Shown: piece after piece, positions 25,031 to 31,202 of the stretch
Layout of the letters: the number at the start of each line of letters is the position of its first letter
How positions within the stretch are numbered: position 1 is the first letter of the stretch
Source: an uncultured Collinsella sp.
GTDB lineage: Bacteria > Actinomycetota > Coriobacteriia > Coriobacteriales > Coriobacteriaceae
Direction of reading: 5' to 3'
DNA length: 38,990 bases
NCBI GenBank assembly: GCA_949287065.1
Contig: CASEEV010000004.1
Coordinates: 1 to 38,990 of the forward strand
Made by a program: the position numbers and the translations under genes
The notes under the pieces: generated by a model
Databases searched by the model: none
The model's input: the letters and a program-made list of their open reading frames with translations, nothing else
Told to the model about the DNA's origin: nothing

Positions 25031-25429
25031 ATGTACGAAATGACCGACGAAGAGTTCGAGCTTGCCATTGAGGAAGCGCTGGCAAGCATACCGCCGCGCT
25101 TCTTGGATGCGCTCGAAAACGTCGGCATTACCATGGCGGATGAGCCGAGCGCCGCGCAGCGCGCCGCCCTCGCCCGAGGCGAAGAGCCCTCGGACGGCAC
25201 ACGGGTGCGCGGCGTGCTTCTCGGCCTGTACGAGGGCGTTCCTCTCACCGAGCGCGGTTTTAGCTACGGCAACATGGCCCCCGACATGGTCACGATCTTC
25301 AAACGCGCGCACGAGCGGCTCTTCTCAAGCCGCGAGGAGATCATCGAGCAGATTCGCAAAACCGTGGTCCACGAGATCGGCCACTACTTTGGCCTGAGCG
25401 ACGACGATCTGCGCCGCATGGGCTACTAA
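25031..25429 (+). CDS. Small zincin-like metallopeptidase
   Basis: This 132-residue protein has the C-terminal motif HEIGHYFGLSDDDL, the HExxHxxG-type zinc site of the small metallopeptidase family (PF06262-like). The N-terminal stretch MTDEEFELAIEEALASIPP is also typical of that family. It has no signal peptide and is probably cytoplasmic. The substrate is unknown. The ATG at 25031 follows AAGAAGGAG. A TATAGT -10-like box lies at 24978-24983. It converges on the 25716-26981 gene, with the composite hairpin at 25506-25599 between them. Confidence 0.88.
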   Translation: MYEMTDEEFELAIEEALASIPPRFLDALENVGITMADEPSAAQRAALARGEEPSDGTRVRGVLLGLYEGVPLTERGFSYGNMAPDMVTIFKRAHERLFSSREEIIEQIRKTVVHEIGHYFGLSDDDLRRMGY

Positions 25430-25505
25430 CCCCTGCCCCGCCTCGCCACAAGCGCGGCGCGCTCGCCCAAAGACCAGGTCGCCCTGAGCCTCAGCGCCGA
25501 GTTCT

Positions 25506-25715: not shown

Positions 25716-26981
25716 CTACAGCTCAAACGTGCGGGCAACGACCTTCTCGGGCATGCCGGTCTCTTGGTTGCGCACGGTGGCAAAGGTCACCAGCGTGTCG
25801 GCCGTACCGACGGTGGCGGGGTAGTCGCCAAAGTCGAGGCTGTGGTCGGGCGCGTAGATAACCGCGTACGTCTCTTGGTCGGTGTCGATGAGAAAGTGCG
25901 ACGACTGCGACTTAACGGCGTAGCGACCCTCTTTGCCGCACACGCAGGCAAACGGCTCGCGCGAAAGCGTGTAGTACGGGCCGCTGCCGCTGCCCACGTA
26001 GGTGCCCATGTTGCCAAACAGGCCGCCCGACTCGTAGCTCGCCTCAACCGAGAAGGCAAACTTGCCCCCCATGTACACCGCCTCGAAGGGGCGGATGCTC
26101 AGAGGCAGCACGAGCTGGTCGAGCTGCGCGCGGTCGCTGTCCGTGAGATCGATGGCCGTGATGCCGTAGTACTGGCCCTCGTCCTCGCGCACGCGCGGCG
26201 CGATGGTGAGCACGCCCTCCGAAACCGTGGGCGTGGTCGCAAAGCGGCCGTGCGACTCCCACAGGTCCTGCGCGCTGTCGTCGCCCGTGGACCACATGCG
26301 GCAAAACGAGCTCTCAGACGACTTGGGGCCCGAAGCGTTGGGCATCACAAGCCAGATAACCGCGTCGTTGTACACGGCAAAGCGCGGCGGATCGTAGTCC
26401 GAGGTGCCCTTCGCGAGCTCCTGAGCAGAACCCGTGAGCGCGCCCTCGGCAAAGGGCTGGGCAAACAGAGTCCAGGTGCGGTCGCTGTAGTCGATCTCGA
26501 TCCATGCAAAGAGGTCGTCAGAGCAGCTCGCGTCAAAGAACGAGCGAGAAGTGCCCGAGGTCGGCTCCTCGAGCAGCGTGACCGTTGAGCCAGAGGAGAG
26601 GCTCAGCGCGCCGAGCGTGTTCATGACGGCGGCCGTAGTTCCCTGCTGGATAAGGGCAACGTACGCGCCGCTGCTCGGGAGAAGCACCGTGCCAAGCGGA
26701 AGCTCCCAAGTGGCGGAAGCCTCGGGCGCCTCGGCCTCGGCAAACTCCTCGAGCACGTTGATGCTCTGCGAATCGTCGTCGATGATCGTGGGGTCGCCCG
26801 CGCCTGTGCCGTCCGAACCGCCGCAACCCGACAGCGCGGTAGCTACAGCAATCGCGCCGCCCACGGCGGCGGTGCCGGCGGCAAAGCGACGGCGCGTAAT
26901 GCCCCTGCGCGCGGCGCCCTGGCTCTCGGGGCGCGCGGCGGAGGCAGACGATGCGGACAGTTTGCGCTTTGGCTTGAACAC
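25716..26981 (-). CDS. Tat-exported putative lipoprotein, unknown function
   Basis: This 421-residue protein has a twin-arginine signal near residues 24-55: GITRRRFAAGTAAVGGAIAV followed by ALSGCGG. It is therefore probably exported folded and lipidated at the Cys. The mature part lacks further membrane segments. It has repeated short hydrophobic-aromatic strands (WELPLGTVLLP, DDLFAWIEIDY, AVYNDAVIWLV, GGKFAFSVEAS), suggesting a beta-propeller. I do not recognise a catalytic motif. GTG at 26981 is taken as start because GGAGAA lies just before it; an ATG at 27056 lies inside the TSCPD gene. It is 17 bases downstream of the TSCPD gene and probably cotranscribed. Confidence 0.75.
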   Translation of the reverse strand: MFKPKRKLSASSASAARPESQGAARRGITRRRFAAGTAAVGGAIAVATALSGCGGSDGTGAGDPTIIDDDSQSINVLEEFAEAEAPEASATWELPLGTVLLPSSGAYVALIQQGTTAAVMNTLGALSLSSGSTVTLLEEPTSGTSRSFFDASCSDDLFAWIEIDYSDRTWTLFAQPFAEGALTGSAQELAKGTSDYDPPRFAVYNDAVIWLVMPNASGPKSSESSFCRMWSTGDDSAQDLWESHGRFATTPTVSEGVLTIAPRVREDEGQYYGITAIDLTDSDRAQLDQLVLPLSIRPFEAVYMGGKFAFSVEASYESGGLFGNMGTYVGSGSGPYYTLSREPFACVCGKEGRYAVKSQSSHFLIDTDQETYAVIYAPDHSLDFGDYPATVGTADTLVTFATVRNQETGMPEKVVARTFEL

Positions 26982-26998
26982 GGGCTTCTCCGGATAAC

Positions 26999-27265
26999 TT
27001 AGGCGCGGGCCTGGGACTGAGCGGCGCGCAGGGCACGCGTCAGCTGGTCGGCGCACGAGGTGGGACGGTTGCCGCAGGTGTTGCCCTCGAGGATCGAGAC
27101 GATCTCGTCAACAGGCTTGCCGGCAACGAGCTTGGAGACGGCTTTGAGGTTGCCGTTGCAGCCGCCCACAAAGCTCACGGCGTTGATGGTGTTGCCGTCG
27201 TCGGCAAGCTCCACGTGGATGTTGCGCGAGCAAACGCCCTGCGGCGTGTAGTCAATGGCGGTCAT
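26999..27265 (-). CDS. TSCPD domain protein
   Basis: This 88-residue protein matches the small TSCPD proteins related to the C-terminus of class II ribonucleotide reductase. Four Cys are in place: VCSRNI, GGCNGNL, NTCGNRP and TSCADQL, the last a variant of the TSCPD motif itself. It probably binds a metal, although its function is unknown. The ATG at 27265 follows AAAGGGGA. It is upstream of the Tat lipoprotein gene. Confidence 0.88.
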   Translation of the reverse strand: MTAIDYTPQGVCSRNIHVELADDGNTINAVSFVGGCNGNLKAVSKLVAGKPVDEIVSILEGNTCGNRPTSCADQLTRALRAAQSQARA

Positions 27266-27426: not shown

Positions 27427-27454
27427 AGGGCGGCCTCCTTGAGGAAGCCGCCCT
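27427..27454 (-). terminator. Terminator of the ferredoxin-AOR-cytochrome operon
   Basis: An eight-pair stem, AGGGCGGC / GCCGCCCT, is followed on the minus strand by TCTCTTATATATAG. It lies about 50 bases after the cytochrome stop codon. Confidence 0.65.
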
Positions 27455-27502: not shown

Positions 27503-28174
27503 TTACTCCTGCGTGGTGGTTGCCTCGAAGTTCTGGGGAACCGTCCAGCCCTTGGGCAGGTAGGTCATGGTGCCGTCGACCTCGGCGGTGTCGGTCCAAC
27601 CCTCGGGGACGCCGCCCTCGCCCTCGTACGCGCCGATCTGGTGGCAGCCGGTGCAGGTGAGGACGCTCTGGTCGTGCATGCGGTGGCAGGAGTTGCACTG
27701 CTGCACAACGCCGCCGTGGTAGGTGCTGTGCGGGTCAAAGCCGTAGTCCTTGGTGGAGGACTCGGTTGCGCCCGGCATCACGCCGCCGCCCAGGTGGCAG
27801 CCGCTCTGCAGGCAGAACTCGTTGGAGTAGGTCACCTTTTGGAGCGGGGTGGAGAAGCTGCCCGAGAGCTGCGACTGGGCCTGGCTCACCGTCTGGGAGA
27901 GCGTGGCCTCGTGGCAGCCGAGGCACTGGTTGTTAACGATGGACTTGTGAGCGTAGGCAAGGCTCGTGGTGTCGTTCTCGAACGAGTCGTAGTACTTGCC
28001 CATCGTGCTGTGGCACACGGCGTCGCAGTACTCGGGGGTGGCGTGCCAGGCCCAGCCGGCAACGCCGAGCACGGCAACGATCACAACGACCGCAATGGCG
28101 ATCGGGAGGCGCTTGACCTTGCGCTTCTTGGCCGGGGCTTCGGTCCCGGTGGTGTCCTTGATTTCGTCAGCCAT
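27503..28174 (-). CDS. NrfH/NapC-like membrane-anchored multihaem cytochrome c
   Basis: This 223-residue protein has a charged N-terminus, one membrane anchor (about 23-45) and an extracytoplasmic haem domain. Five candidate covalent haem sites are visible: C50-x3-C54-H, C84-x2-C87-H, C121-x4-C126-H, C160-x2-C163-H and C174-x2-C177-H. Three are canonical CxxCH and two have longer spacing. Additional His (H76, H149, H153, H167) could be axial ligands. Proteins of this type pass electrons from the membrane quinone pool to or from a periplasm-side partner. It starts 22 bases after the AOR stop codon with AAAGGAG upstream, so it is the third gene of the redox operon. Confidence 0.9.
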   Translation of the reverse strand: MADEIKDTTGTEAPAKKRKVKRLPIAIAVVVIVAVLGVAGWAWHATPEYCDAVCHSTMGKYYDSFENDTTSLAYAHKSIVNNQCLGCHEATLSQTVSQAQSQLSGSFSTPLQKVTYSNEFCLQSGCHLGGGVMPGATESSTKDYGFDPHSTYHGGVVQQCNSCHRMHDQSVLTCTGCHQIGAYEGEGGVPEGWTDTAEVDGTMTYLPKGWTVPQNFEATTTQE

Positions 28175-28196
28175 GGTTCACTCCTTTCGTGGTCGT

Positions 28197-30440
28197 TTAG
28201 GCGAGGGCCGGGTTGTTGGCGCTGTAGTCGGCGAGAACGCCGTCGTAGCTGCGCGTGCGGTCGTCGTAGGCGTCGCCGCCGTCAACGAGCAGGCCGGCTT
28301 CGTCGAGCTTGGTCGCGAGATCGTCGAGCTCGAGGTCCTCGAGGCACTGCTTGGTGGGGCAGCCGAGCTCCTCGTCCCAGCCGAAGCGCTTGTAGAGCAT
28401 GCCCAGCGCCTTCGACCAGTCGTCGCGATCCATCTTGTCGGTGCCCTCCTCGAAGGGCTTGATGTCGGGATCCTTCTCGAAGACCCACTCGGTGATGACG
28501 TCGTGGACGTTGCGGAAGTCGTTGCAGCCCACGTTGCCGTCGGCGTCGGTCATGCCGAGCGCCGAGTAGCCGCGCTGAAGCGTCATGATGCGCTCGCCGG
28601 CCTTGTAGAGGTCGTCGATGGTGACCTCCTTGCCGGTGACGGCGGTGTAGAACTGGGCCTCGAGGTCGAGGTCGCCGCGGTAGTCGCGGGCCTTCTCGGG
28701 GGCCATGGCCATCGGCCACACCCAGTTGCACAGCGTCAGCGAGTCATGCAGGACGTCGGTGACGATGCTCCACCACGCGAACTCGATCTTGGCGTCGTTG
28801 ATGGGCGTGTACGCCTTGTCGGGATCGCACGCGTCCTCGGCGCCCCACATCTCCTTGGCCATCTGGCGCTTGAGGTCGATGGGCAGGCCGCAGCCCTGGA
28901 AGTTGACGGCGGAGTGGATCATGTCGTCGCGGTTGAACATCATGTTGTACAGGCCGCCGACCTGGCCGAAGCACTCGATGGCGTGGTGCACGGGCCAGCC
29001 GCGGTAGTTGATGAGGCAGCTCTTGGCGTCGTCGTACCACTTGGCGTCGTTCCAGCGCTCGGTCCACACAAACGGGCCGTGACCGACATAGGCGATCTCC
29101 TTCTTGTTCATCGCGATGTCGGTGAGGATCTTGACGATGGGCGTCGGGTCCTGGTTGTTGAAGAAGTCCTCGAACTTGTAGTCGGCGTAGTCGTCGCCGA
29201 GCTCGCGCTCGAAGATACCCTCGGCGTAGCAGTGCGCGATGTCGCGATAGAGCTGCGCGTAGTTGCACCACAGGCCGAGGTCGTCAACGACGCCCGAGAC
29301 AACCTGGTTGTAGATGACCGAGAGGTCGGTGAGGGTGCCCTCGTCGTCGGTCAGGCCGGCAACCGGGGCGATGCCGGGCATGTAGGACGAAACCGGGAAG
29401 TTCGGCACGCAGGTGTTGCCCGTGGACGAGTAGCCGGTGATCTCCTTGACGCGCGGGATGGCGACGTTGGTGTAGCAGCGCACCGGGCAGCCGTGGCAGC
29501 CGGCCATCTTGACGGTGTACTTCTCGGCCTCGGGGCCCAGGTCCTTGGTGGACTTCATGCAGCGGTAGCCGACGGTGTTGAGCTCGCCGGGCTTAGGCTC
29601 GCCGGTCTCGATGGGACCGCCCTCGGCGGCAGCCCAGTACAGGCCCTTGGCAGCGGTCCAACGGGAGCCCTTGTCGTAGTACTCGGCCCAGGACTGCTGG
29701 GTGCTCGGGACCACGTGGTTGTTGTTGGAGCCGAGAACCTCGTTGAGCATGTAGTCGGAGAGGTCGGCGACCATCTGCGGGTCGGCAACGTTGACGGCCT
29801 TGGTGCCGCGCACGACGACGGCCTTGACCTTCTTCTTGCCGAGAACCGCGCCGAGGCCGGCGCCTGCGGAGTGGCTGCGGGCGTTCATGACGCACGCGTA
29901 GGGCAGCAGGTTCTCGCCCGCCGGGCCGATGGCGGCGACGCAGCAGTCGACGCCGTGCTTCTTGCACAGGGCCTCGGTGGTCTCGCGGGTGCCCTTGCCC
30001 CAGACGGCGGAGGCGTCCTCGATCGAGATCTTGTCGTCGTCGATGAGGATGTAGACCGGCGACTCGGACTCGCCCTCGATGATGAGGCCGTCGTGGCCGG
30101 AGTACTTGAGCTGGGCGCCGAGCGTGCCGCCGCAGTGGGCATCGACGATCAGGTAGTCCTTGGTGAACGTGGAGAGCGTGGCCCAGGTGGAGCGGCCGGC
30201 AAGCGGCACGCCCGAACCGGTGAGCGGGCCGACGGCGAGAACGGCCTTGTTCTCGGGATCGTCCCACTTGGTGCCCGCGGGAACCTCGTCGGCCATGATC
30301 TTGTTGGCAAAGCCCATGCCGCCGATGTAGAGGTCCTGCAGCTCCTCGTCGGACTCGGTAGTGATGTTGCCGGACGTAAGGTCGACGCGCGCGATGTAGC
30401 CCGCCCAACCGTACGATCCGTAAACGGCGTTATCAGCCAT
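28197..30440 (-). CDS. Aldehyde:ferredoxin oxidoreductase-family tungsto/molybdoenzyme
   Basis: This 747-residue protein has the whole AOR layout. The N-terminal domain contains the bis-pterin loop VPLAGRSTWATLST (about 78-91) and RSHSAGAGLGAVLGKK (188-203). The [4Fe-4S] cysteines are C315, C318 and C322 in AGCHGCPVRC, with the distal Cys in LTLCNW near 570. It lacks its own signal peptide. It resembles AOR-like proteins coupled to ferredoxins, such as E. coli YdhV, better than classic archaeal AOR, as it is longer than the usual ~610 residues. Its substrate could be an aldehyde or an aromatic/acyl compound; sequence does not decide. It sits between a Tat-exported ferredoxin (36 bases upstream) and a multihaem cytochrome (22 bases downstream). 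Confidence 0.93.
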   Translation of the reverse strand: MADNAVYGSYGWAGYIARVDLTSGNITTESDEELQDLYIGGMGFANKIMADEVPAGTKWDDPENKAVLAVGPLTGSGVPLAGRSTWATLSTFTKDYLIVDAHCGGTLGAQLKYSGHDGLIIEGESESPVYILIDDDKISIEDASAVWGKGTRETTEALCKKHGVDCCVAAIGPAGENLLPYACVMNARSHSAGAGLGAVLGKKKVKAVVVRGTKAVNVADPQMVADLSDYMLNEVLGSNNNHVVPSTQQSWAEYYDKGSRWTAAKGLYWAAAEGGPIETGEPKPGELNTVGYRCMKSTKDLGPEAEKYTVKMAGCHGCPVRCYTNVAIPRVKEITGYSSTGNTCVPNFPVSSYMPGIAPVAGLTDDEGTLTDLSVIYNQVVSGVVDDLGLWCNYAQLYRDIAHCYAEGIFERELGDDYADYKFEDFFNNQDPTPIVKILTDIAMNKKEIAYVGHGPFVWTERWNDAKWYDDAKSCLINYRGWPVHHAIECFGQVGGLYNMMFNRDDMIHSAVNFQGCGLPIDLKRQMAKEMWGAEDACDPDKAYTPINDAKIEFAWWSIVTDVLHDSLTLCNWVWPMAMAPEKARDYRGDLDLEAQFYTAVTGKEVTIDDLYKAGERIMTLQRGYSALGMTDADGNVGCNDFRNVHDVITEWVFEKDPDIKPFEEGTDKMDRDDWSKALGMLYKRFGWDEELGCPTKQCLEDLELDDLATKLDEAGLLVDGGDAYDDRTRSYDGVLADYSANNPALA

Positions 30441-30476
30441 GGATAAGCTCCTTTACTCGAAGTGCGGTCAGTGCGG

Positions 30477-31202
30477 CTATTTGATCTTGCCGCCGCCCAC
30501 GTAATCCTGCTTCTCGGAGATCAGCGGATCGGGGTTCTCCTGCTTGGTGGGGCCGGACGCATGGTTGACGTTCTCCCACTCGACGAGCTCGAGCGCGCCG
30601 TTGGGGCACTGCTCGGCGCAGCGGCCGCACGCGATGCACTTGGAGGCCTTGTGCGTGACCGTGTTGACCGTGGGCATGTGGTACGGGCACGCGGCGGCGC
30701 AGGTGCCGCAGCCGACGCACTTGTCGGGGTCAACGGAGCGCACGCCCGTGGACTCGTCGGTCACAATGGCGCCGTGCGGGCAGGCGGTCTGGCACATGGC
30801 GGTGGTGCACATGTGGCACTGACGGATGTTCCACTCGCAGGAGTAGTAGATGCCGTCGCCGGAGCCGAGCTCCTTGCCAAACAGGAAGCCGTCGCGCACG
30901 TGGATGCGCGAAGCCGCGGGCTGAGCAACGCCGTCGTTCTTGAGCGTGCACATCATTTCGCAGCGCTGGCAACCGGTGCAGCGGGCACGGTTGATCTTGA
31001 GCACGTGGCTCGGCGTGGCGTAGTAGTCGATCTGGCCCTGCGAGCTGGTGGGCTGCGCCGCGGCGGACTCGGGCAGCAGGCCGAGAGCCGCGAGCGCCGT
31101 CACGAACGCTCCCGACACCTTCACGAACCCGCGGCGGGTGAAGAAGGCGTCGAGGCGATCCGCGCCGGAGCCCACATGCTCCAAAGCGGTGTTCTCTTTC
31201 AT
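30477..31202 (-). CDS. Tat-exported ferredoxin with four [4Fe-4S] clusters
   Basis: This 241-residue electron-transfer subunit resembles HybA/DmsB/YdhY-type proteins. A twin-arginine signal lies near residues 20-48 (FFTRRGFVKVSGA followed by a hydrophobic stretch and AAA). Four Cys clusters follow: CTGCQRCEMMC, CHMCTTAMCQTACP, CVGCGTCAAACP and CIACGRCAEQCP, enough for four [4Fe-4S]. Export on the outer face suggests the AOR protein, which has no signal, is either carried along by this subunit or works on the other side of the membrane. The ATG follows AGGGAGGG. It is the first gene of the operon. Confidence 0.93.
   Translation of the reverse strand: MKENTALEHVGSGADRLDAFFTRRGFVKVSGAFVTALAALGLLPESAAAQPTSSQGQIDYYATPSHVLKINRARCTGCQRCEMMCTLKNDGVAQPAASRIHVRDGFLFGKELGSGDGIYYSCEWNIRQCHMCTTAMCQTACPHGAIVTDESTGVRSVDPDKCVGCGTCAAACPYHMPTVNTVTHKASKCIACGRCAEQCPNGALELVEWENVNHASGPTKQENPDPLISEKQDYVGGGKIK

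Follow-up and report, generated by a model that had tools for sequence, protein, structure and literature searches.

A YdhV-type AOR-family enzyme linked to a Tat-exported ferredoxin and a pentahaem cytochrome in Coriobacteriaceae: a candidate extracytoplasmic reductase

What could an enzyme of the aldehyde:ferredoxin oxidoreductase (AOR) family that bears no export signal be doing beside an exported ferredoxin and a membrane-anchored multihaem cytochrome? This question is raised by three adjacent genes in a stretch of 38,990 nucleotides from an uncultured Collinsella sp. (assembly GCA_949287065.1, contig CASEEV010000004.1, positions 1 to 38,990; hereafter the window), for which an earlier note had proposed an uncharacterised respiratory reductase of a gut anaerobe. 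That proposal is still the best reading, and we estimate at roughly 0.6 the probability that the operon encodes a membrane-attached extracytoplasmic terminal reductase, as its gene content suggests; what has changed is that the enzyme falls within an already published group, clade 41 of the Class V tungsten/molybdenum oxidoreductases (WORs) (PMC13328260, cited here, as are the other papers below, from part of its text).

Evidence that the three genes belong together is provided by their arrangement. All lie on the minus strand and are separated by gaps of 36 bases (ferredoxin to AOR) and 22 bases (AOR to cytochrome), and the tight spacing remarked upon in the earlier note is therefore borne out by the coordinates of the open reading frames (ORFs). 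In named genomes 79 loci were compared, taken from the best 80 of 190, and 22 of them belong to Coriobacteriaceae, among them Collinsella tanakaei, C. stercoris, C. intestinalis, C. ihumii and Enorma phocaeensis; gene order, strand and the five haem motifs of the cytochrome recur in all 22, which argues that the arrangement is not a matter of chance and, judged from this conservation, the three genes form one operon. This operon most likely ends at 27454-27427, because a hairpin with a T-rich tail is found there; the terminator scan returned 5 sites against 4.1 expected by chance, and the call therefore rests on the long 12-bp stem.

Sequence comparison identifies the catalytic subunit as the orthologue of E. 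coli YdhV and the small subunit as that of YdhY. The AOR protein matches the Pfam families AFOR_N (E 4.6e-64) and AFOR_C (8.8e-32), is 53% identical to E. coli YdhV and passes the NCBI YdhV equivalog model NF007354 (987 bits, cut-off 868), as do E. coli YdhV itself and C. somerae WOR41, while the AOR of a metagenome-assembled genome of an uncultured Coriobacteriaceae member (CALUOB010000005.1) is 99% identical to that of the window. The phylogeny that the earlier note had proposed as a check was built with FastTree from 37 AOR-family proteins, a 133-aa false ORF from Acetoanaerobium being excluded, and it groups the protein of the window with YdhV and C. somerae WOR41 (support 0.995), nested within Coriobacteriia (0.985) and Coriobacteriaceae (1.0) and apart from 13 other AOR-family proteins. 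The small subunit contains Pfam Fer4 modules and four clusters with 16 cysteines in total, none of which varies among 12 aligned sequences, and its N-terminus carries a twin-arginine signal (FFTRRGFVKVSG, AAA), in agreement with the earlier description of a 4x[4Fe-4S] protein exported by the twin-arginine translocation (Tat) pathway. This signal, assigned by reading the motif, is kept as TRRGFVKVS in 22/22 named Coriobacteriaceae relatives, and the Tat-bearing small subunit (WorS) that characterizes Class V WORs is accordingly present in the window and in all of these relatives. The ferredoxin reaches 179 bits under the YdhY model NF007382, below the cut-off of 213, and is 40% identical to E. 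coli YdhY versus 29% to YdhX, which led to rejection of YdhX as its counterpart; with these values for the two subunits, the comparison with E. coli ydh-type clusters made in the earlier note proved right, and stronger than it had been stated.

Regarding the active site, Cys 315, 318, 322 and 571 of the AOR protein align with the residues that bind the cluster in other AOR-family proteins, and His 509 falls in the column of their active-site histidine, so that the four [4Fe-4S] cysteine ligands and the active-site histidine of a canonical AOR are all found, and cofactor ligands are conserved across 11 to 24 aligned sequences. The roles of these residues are those known from P. furiosus AOR. 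No counterpart of the catalytic glutamate (PEYE motif) was recognised in any of the 24 sequences of the YdhV clade, which have Glu at neither aligned position, while 7 of the 13 other AOR-family sequences retain PE(Y/F)E. This absence agrees with the observation that the C. somerae homologue displayed no activity on 46 aldehydes (PMC13328260).

The third protein is a c-type cytochrome with the haem motifs CDAVCH, CLGCH, CLQSGCH, CNSCH and CTGCH, whose order of spacings (x3/x2/x4/x2/x2) is maintained in an intact frame in 22/22 named operon loci. The earlier claim of a multihaem cytochrome with two non-canonical spacings stands as far as the five sites and the x3 and x4 motifs are concerned, but such spacings are usual in this family: of 16 further members from relatives, all 16 have x3 in the first motif and 15 have x4 in the third, which makes the spacing a family trait and caused it to be rejected as a mark of the operon. 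The protein exceeds the Pfam cut-off for Cytochrom_c3_2, and its best NCBIfam match is Cgr1 (NF051471; 101.7 bits, below the cut-off of 340), a model under which two other cytochromes of the class score 117 and 157. As the score for NapC/NirT (PF03264) is 19.1, below the gathering score of 24.1, the label 'NrfH-like' in the earlier note was a loose one. The family is common in Coriobacteriia, and Cgr1 is its named member. An AlphaFold2 model (predicted local distance difference test, pLDDT, 56.7) contains a single confident membrane helix, the N-terminal residues 22-44, which precedes all five haem sites, and the cytochrome, linked in 22/22 loci, provides the further membrane-associated subunit (at least one) of Class V WORs. 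One AOR-carrying genome of the family (G003) also encodes a second Cgr1-type cytochrome (L182:4008-4568), one of the 16 compared above, the second haem motif of which has decayed to CLSRH, and beside it a Tat FAD-binding reductase-like protein (L182:2519-4012).

Where the catalytic subunit would act is a separate matter. Its N-terminus, MADNAVYGSYGWAG, reveals no signal peptide, as had been noticed before, and two options had been put forward, namely co-export of the AOR-like enzyme or movement of electrons across the membrane. The former is now favoured, as none of the three proteins could pass electrons across the membrane: the operon includes neither a cytochrome b nor NrfD, and the confident helix of the cytochrome lies ahead of its haem sites. 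In the absence of a membrane-spanning redox subunit, a cytoplasmic AOR would be cut off from its partners and, since only the ferredoxin bears an export signal, co-export is most likely; we thus infer an extracytoplasmic location for the AOR from the Tat signal of its partner.

A survey of 65 genomes of the family revealed the AOR in 30, without an internal stop in any match and with the haem-pair pattern beside it in all 30. The presence of PF01578, which represents CcmF and CcmC of the cytochrome c maturation (Ccm) pathway, follows that of the AOR closely (29/30 AOR-positive versus 0/35 AOR-negative genomes, Fisher 1.2e-17), the sole AOR-positive genome without it (G028) being 81% complete. 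Parsimony on a TatC tree covering 62 of the 65 genomes puts the number of changes in AOR presence at about six (against a shuffled mean of 20.7), a figure to be taken as an estimate given that the tree comes from a single short gene, and apart from G028 every tip has matching Ccm and AOR labels; TatC itself, present in 62/65 genomes and therefore uninformative, was rejected as a co-occurring marker. After removal of matches that were out of frame, contained stops or read CxxCHGxG, the zinc motif of DnaJ, and with a pattern that single-haem cytochromes and wider spacings would escape, 27 of the 30 AOR-positive genomes, that of the window included, retained no plausible multihaem match besides the operon cytochrome, and a second one occurs in G003, G005 and G011. 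The ccm cluster in the window's genome reads ccmE-ccmF-ABC ATPase-ccmB-ccmC. In the ccm cluster at L063:7314-12776 (ccmE-F-(A)-B-C), CcmE carries CPSKY, with CxxxY replacing HxxxY, and CcmH was not seen in the cluster, as in a variant System I.

The pterin side of the enzyme was approached in the same genomes. MopB-type enzymes (PF00384) were detected in 2/30 AOR-positive versus 19/35 AOR-negative genomes, and xanthine-dehydrogenase-type enzymes (PF02738) in 14/30 versus 25/35, with two matches in the window's genome, on account of which the idea that the AOR is the sole pterin enzyme of that genome was rejected; such a claim is limited to the 15 AOR-positive genomes without both tested families, sulfite-oxidase-type enzymes lying outside the search. 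Among the 25 genomes without PF00384 and PF02738, MoaA was over the cut-off in 14/15 AOR-positive versus 0/10 AOR-negative ones, G024, with no more than a fragmentary match close to the end of a contig, being scored as the miss. MoaA thus tracks the AOR in genomes without the other tested enzymes, so that retention of the pterin pathway is associated with the AOR by itself, and this association is the best available, albeit indirect, evidence for a pterin cofactor on the AOR in vivo. The moaA neighbourhoods were rejected as an indicator of Mo or W, since inspection by eye recognised no transporter in them.

With regard to quinones, a UbiA-family prenyltransferase (PF01040) was found in 10/30 AOR-positive versus 0/35 AOR-negative genomes and MenA alone in 9/65, all of them AOR-positive; the window's genome (G000, 97% complete) yielded no UbiA in a search that was positive for 14/14 control genomes. 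Signs of a quinone-linked life are thus present among AOR carriers, but two thirds of them seem unable to make quinone, for which reason any quinone used would be scavenged. Dependence on menaquinone from neighbours is known in gut bacteria, including Gordonibacter (PMC5738691), and this makes scavenging by carriers without UbiA plausible. The lack of UbiA despite a respiratory-looking cytochrome, seen in G000 and in 19 further AOR-positive genomes, could reflect either quinone scavenging or a non-quinone donor.

The operon might operate as follows. The AOR would fold in the cytoplasm around a bis-pyranopterin cofactor (Mo or W), bind the Tat ferredoxin and then be exported together with it, a mode of export called 'hitch-hiking' that applies to Hyb hydrogenase. 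Outside, the AOR-ferredoxin pair would dock to the cytochrome, which may fill the place of MopB-PhsB-NrfD in Eggerthellaceae or of the cytochrome b YdhU in E. coli, and electrons would travel from quinol through the haems, the [4Fe-4S] chain and the AOR cluster to the Mo/W site, where a small acceptor would be reduced; in genomes without UbiA, that of the window among them, the quinone would be supplied by other gut bacteria. A reductive direction is suggested by analogy, as cytochromes of this family are paired with Tat reductases elsewhere: one is modelled as feeding Cgr2 (PMC5953540), and the second cytochrome of G003 adjoins the Tat FAD-binding protein. The model is least secure with respect to substrate and direction. 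A fuller account can be offered only tentatively, with somewhat less than even odds: a YdhV-type AOR, having lost its aldehyde chemistry, would have become an extracytoplasmic terminal reductase driven by cytochrome c, the only client found for the whole Ccm system in many Coriobacteriaceae and, in some, for molybdopterin synthesis as well, and would run on scavenged quinones since its carriers cannot make their own.

Several considerations weigh against the reductase reading. Reduction rather than oxidation is argued by analogy, the cytochrome model is poor (pLDDT 57) and its quinol-oxidising role is a proposal, and 20/30 AOR-positive genomes, the window's included, are without UbiA, so that a quinone pool of their own is doubtful. 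Furthermore, the co-occurrence counts ignore kinship except for the one-gene TatC tree, the glutamate column falls in a gapped region of the alignment, which makes its exact position uncertain, and the test on 46 aldehydes was performed with a partly purified large subunit from which the small partner was absent (PMC13328260), so that this negative is a weak one.

A rival reading is an extracytoplasmic dehydrogenase, in which the exported complex oxidises an aldehyde or another low-potential donor and delivers electrons via the cytochrome to quinone or an external acceptor: characterised AOR-family enzymes are mostly aldehyde-oxidising (PMC13328260), and the missing UbiA in 20/30 carriers weakens the case for a quinol-fed reductase. 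The same shortage, however, would leave an oxidising enzyme without its acceptor and, given the loss of the canonical glutamate in 24/24 clade sequences, the inactivity of the C. somerae homologue on 46 aldehydes (PMC13328260) and the service that this cytochrome family renders to reductases elsewhere in the class, we regard oxidation as unlikely. It is less probable still that the AOR stays in the cytoplasm, with the exported ferredoxin and cytochrome serving something else and the operon merely co-regulating them; the lack of a signal peptide on the AOR and the restriction of the Tat signal to the ferredoxin fit such an arrangement, yet the YdhY/WorS gene adjoins the AOR gene in E. coli, C. 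somerae and Coriobacteriia, Ccm and AOR co-vary across the family genomes, and the operon holds no other enzyme dependent on a multihaem cytochrome. Finally, 35/65 family genomes live without the AOR, as would be expected of a decayed or bystander locus retained by linkage, but this explanation is very improbable in view of the ligands conserved in 11 to 24 aligned sequences, the intact cytochrome frame with five motifs in 22/22 loci, the AOR matches free of stops and the roughly six occasions on which AOR presence changes together with Ccm. A membrane-attached extracytoplasmic reductase hence remains the preferred interpretation.

The genome context of this enzyme is unusually informative, as it travels with the whole Ccm pathway and with pterin synthesis and is itself missing from many close relatives, and a further multihaem cytochrome and a further tested pterin enzyme both seem to be lacking in some carriers. 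A contrast between a carrier (Collinsella tanakaei, C. stercoris or C. intestinalis) and a close non-carrier would isolate nearly this enzyme because these systems have few other clients, and a haem-c or cofactor deficiency in carriers would resemble an enzyme knock-out. The operon also connects the cross-feeding of quinones with respiration in a major gut family, in a way that can be tested.

Table 1. Features of the operon and its downstream neighbours in the window.
Feature	Coordinates	Strand	Remark
Tat-exported 4x[4Fe-4S] electron-transfer subunit, YdhY orthologue (WorS), 241 aa	30477..31202	-	
AOR-family pterin catalytic subunit, YdhV orthologue (WorL, clade 41), 747 aa	28197..30440	-	
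Five-haem c-type cytochrome, membrane-anchored, Cgr1-like, 223 aa	27503..28174	-	
Intrinsic-terminator-like hairpin, 12-bp stem then T-rich tail	27427..27454	-	z -2.43
TSCPD protein TIGR03905, neighbour, separate unit	26999..27265	-	
Tat lipoprotein, predicted beta-propeller, neighbour, separate unit	25716..27056	-	no Pfam/NCBIfam family

The neighbours listed in Table 1 are themselves recurrent. The TSCPD protein adjoins the operon in 21/22 named Coriobacteriaceae loci, and the beta-propeller gene is found downstream in 20/22 of these and in 0/57 other loci; at L083 it falls just beyond the stretch examined (cf. L040). A role of the propeller as a fourth subunit was considered and rejected, as the terminator separates its gene from the operon. 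The Tat signal of this lipoprotein reads RRRF...LSGC, its true start lying downstream of the GTG of the ORF, and its model (pLDDT 87) is that of a beta-propeller whose best VIA Z, 19.3, is to propellers of S9 peptidases and is not discriminating. Further downstream, ARAGORN reported a tRNA-like match on the minus strand (25389-25476) with an undetermined anticodon, which is probably spurious.

As for known systems, the nearest relatives are found within the same class. All 22 Coriobacteriaceae loci have ferredoxin, AOR and cytochrome in one direction and neither MopB nor NrfD, whereas 51 of the 57 other loci, from Eggerthellaceae and relatives, combine a ferredoxin with MopB, PhsB and NrfD (an assignment checked with Pfam on one locus), the remaining 6 end at a contig edge, and a linked cytochrome is present in 0/57. 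On this distribution, two membrane modules substitute for each other around a common two-subunit core. The Eggerthellaceae proteins resemble those of the window (AOR 59-67% and ferredoxin 38-47% identical), but their ferredoxin sits with MopB, PhsB and NrfD, divergently from the AOR. Loci of this type (e.g. L054:10475-15628) comprise an AOR and a PhsA-like Tat MopB, that is, two pterin enzymes per cluster.

The ydhYVWXUT cluster of E. coli (NC_000913.3) has its YdhY and YdhV genes arranged as their orthologues are here; the operon of the window, in contrast, has three genes and is without YdhW, X, U and T, and its membrane partner is a c-type cytochrome where E. coli has the cytochrome b561-type YdhU. 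The signal of E. coli YdhY reads TR, and that of the window ferredoxin and its relatives RR. In C. somerae the gene row consists of a three-gene ABC transporter, identified as TupABC (PMC13328260), the small and large subunits, FdhD, TatA/TatC and MoeA. The digoxin reductase Cgr1-Cgr2 of Eggerthella lenta offers another parallel, since a Cgr1-family membrane cytochrome feeds a Tat reductase in the model of its authors (PMC5953540), but the partner in the window is an AOR with a ferredoxin and not a flavoprotein. A link to steroid 21-dehydroxylation (Elen_2451-2454) was rejected, as a commentary, in the part available, lists FdhD, a ferredoxin, a molybdopterin oxidoreductase and an SPFH protein and no AOR (PMC11835702), and among the entries listed in the literature on multiheme cytochromes, respiration and menaquinone in Collinsella none matched the operon.

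The closest match of all is clade 41 of the Class V WORs, a class that is abundant in the gut and was described in June 2026, with Collinsella named as a carrier, in a report which states that none of these enzymes has an assigned activity or role (PMC13328260). A YdhV-type large subunit, a Tat ferredoxin-like small subunit and a membrane-linked subunit are common to that clade and to the operon. The difference lies in the partners, as Coriobacteria are described there as having, besides a transmembrane subunit, a pyranopterin subunit of unknown kind; no cytochrome is mentioned for them in that text, and Figure 5 and Supplementary Figure S4 may show one. The layout given in that text is the one that matches Eggerthellaceae, and Coriobacteriaceae have the pentahaem cytochrome instead. 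In conclusion, membership of Class V is already published and, on comparison of the loci, the cytochrome-linked architecture of Coriobacteriaceae is the variant.

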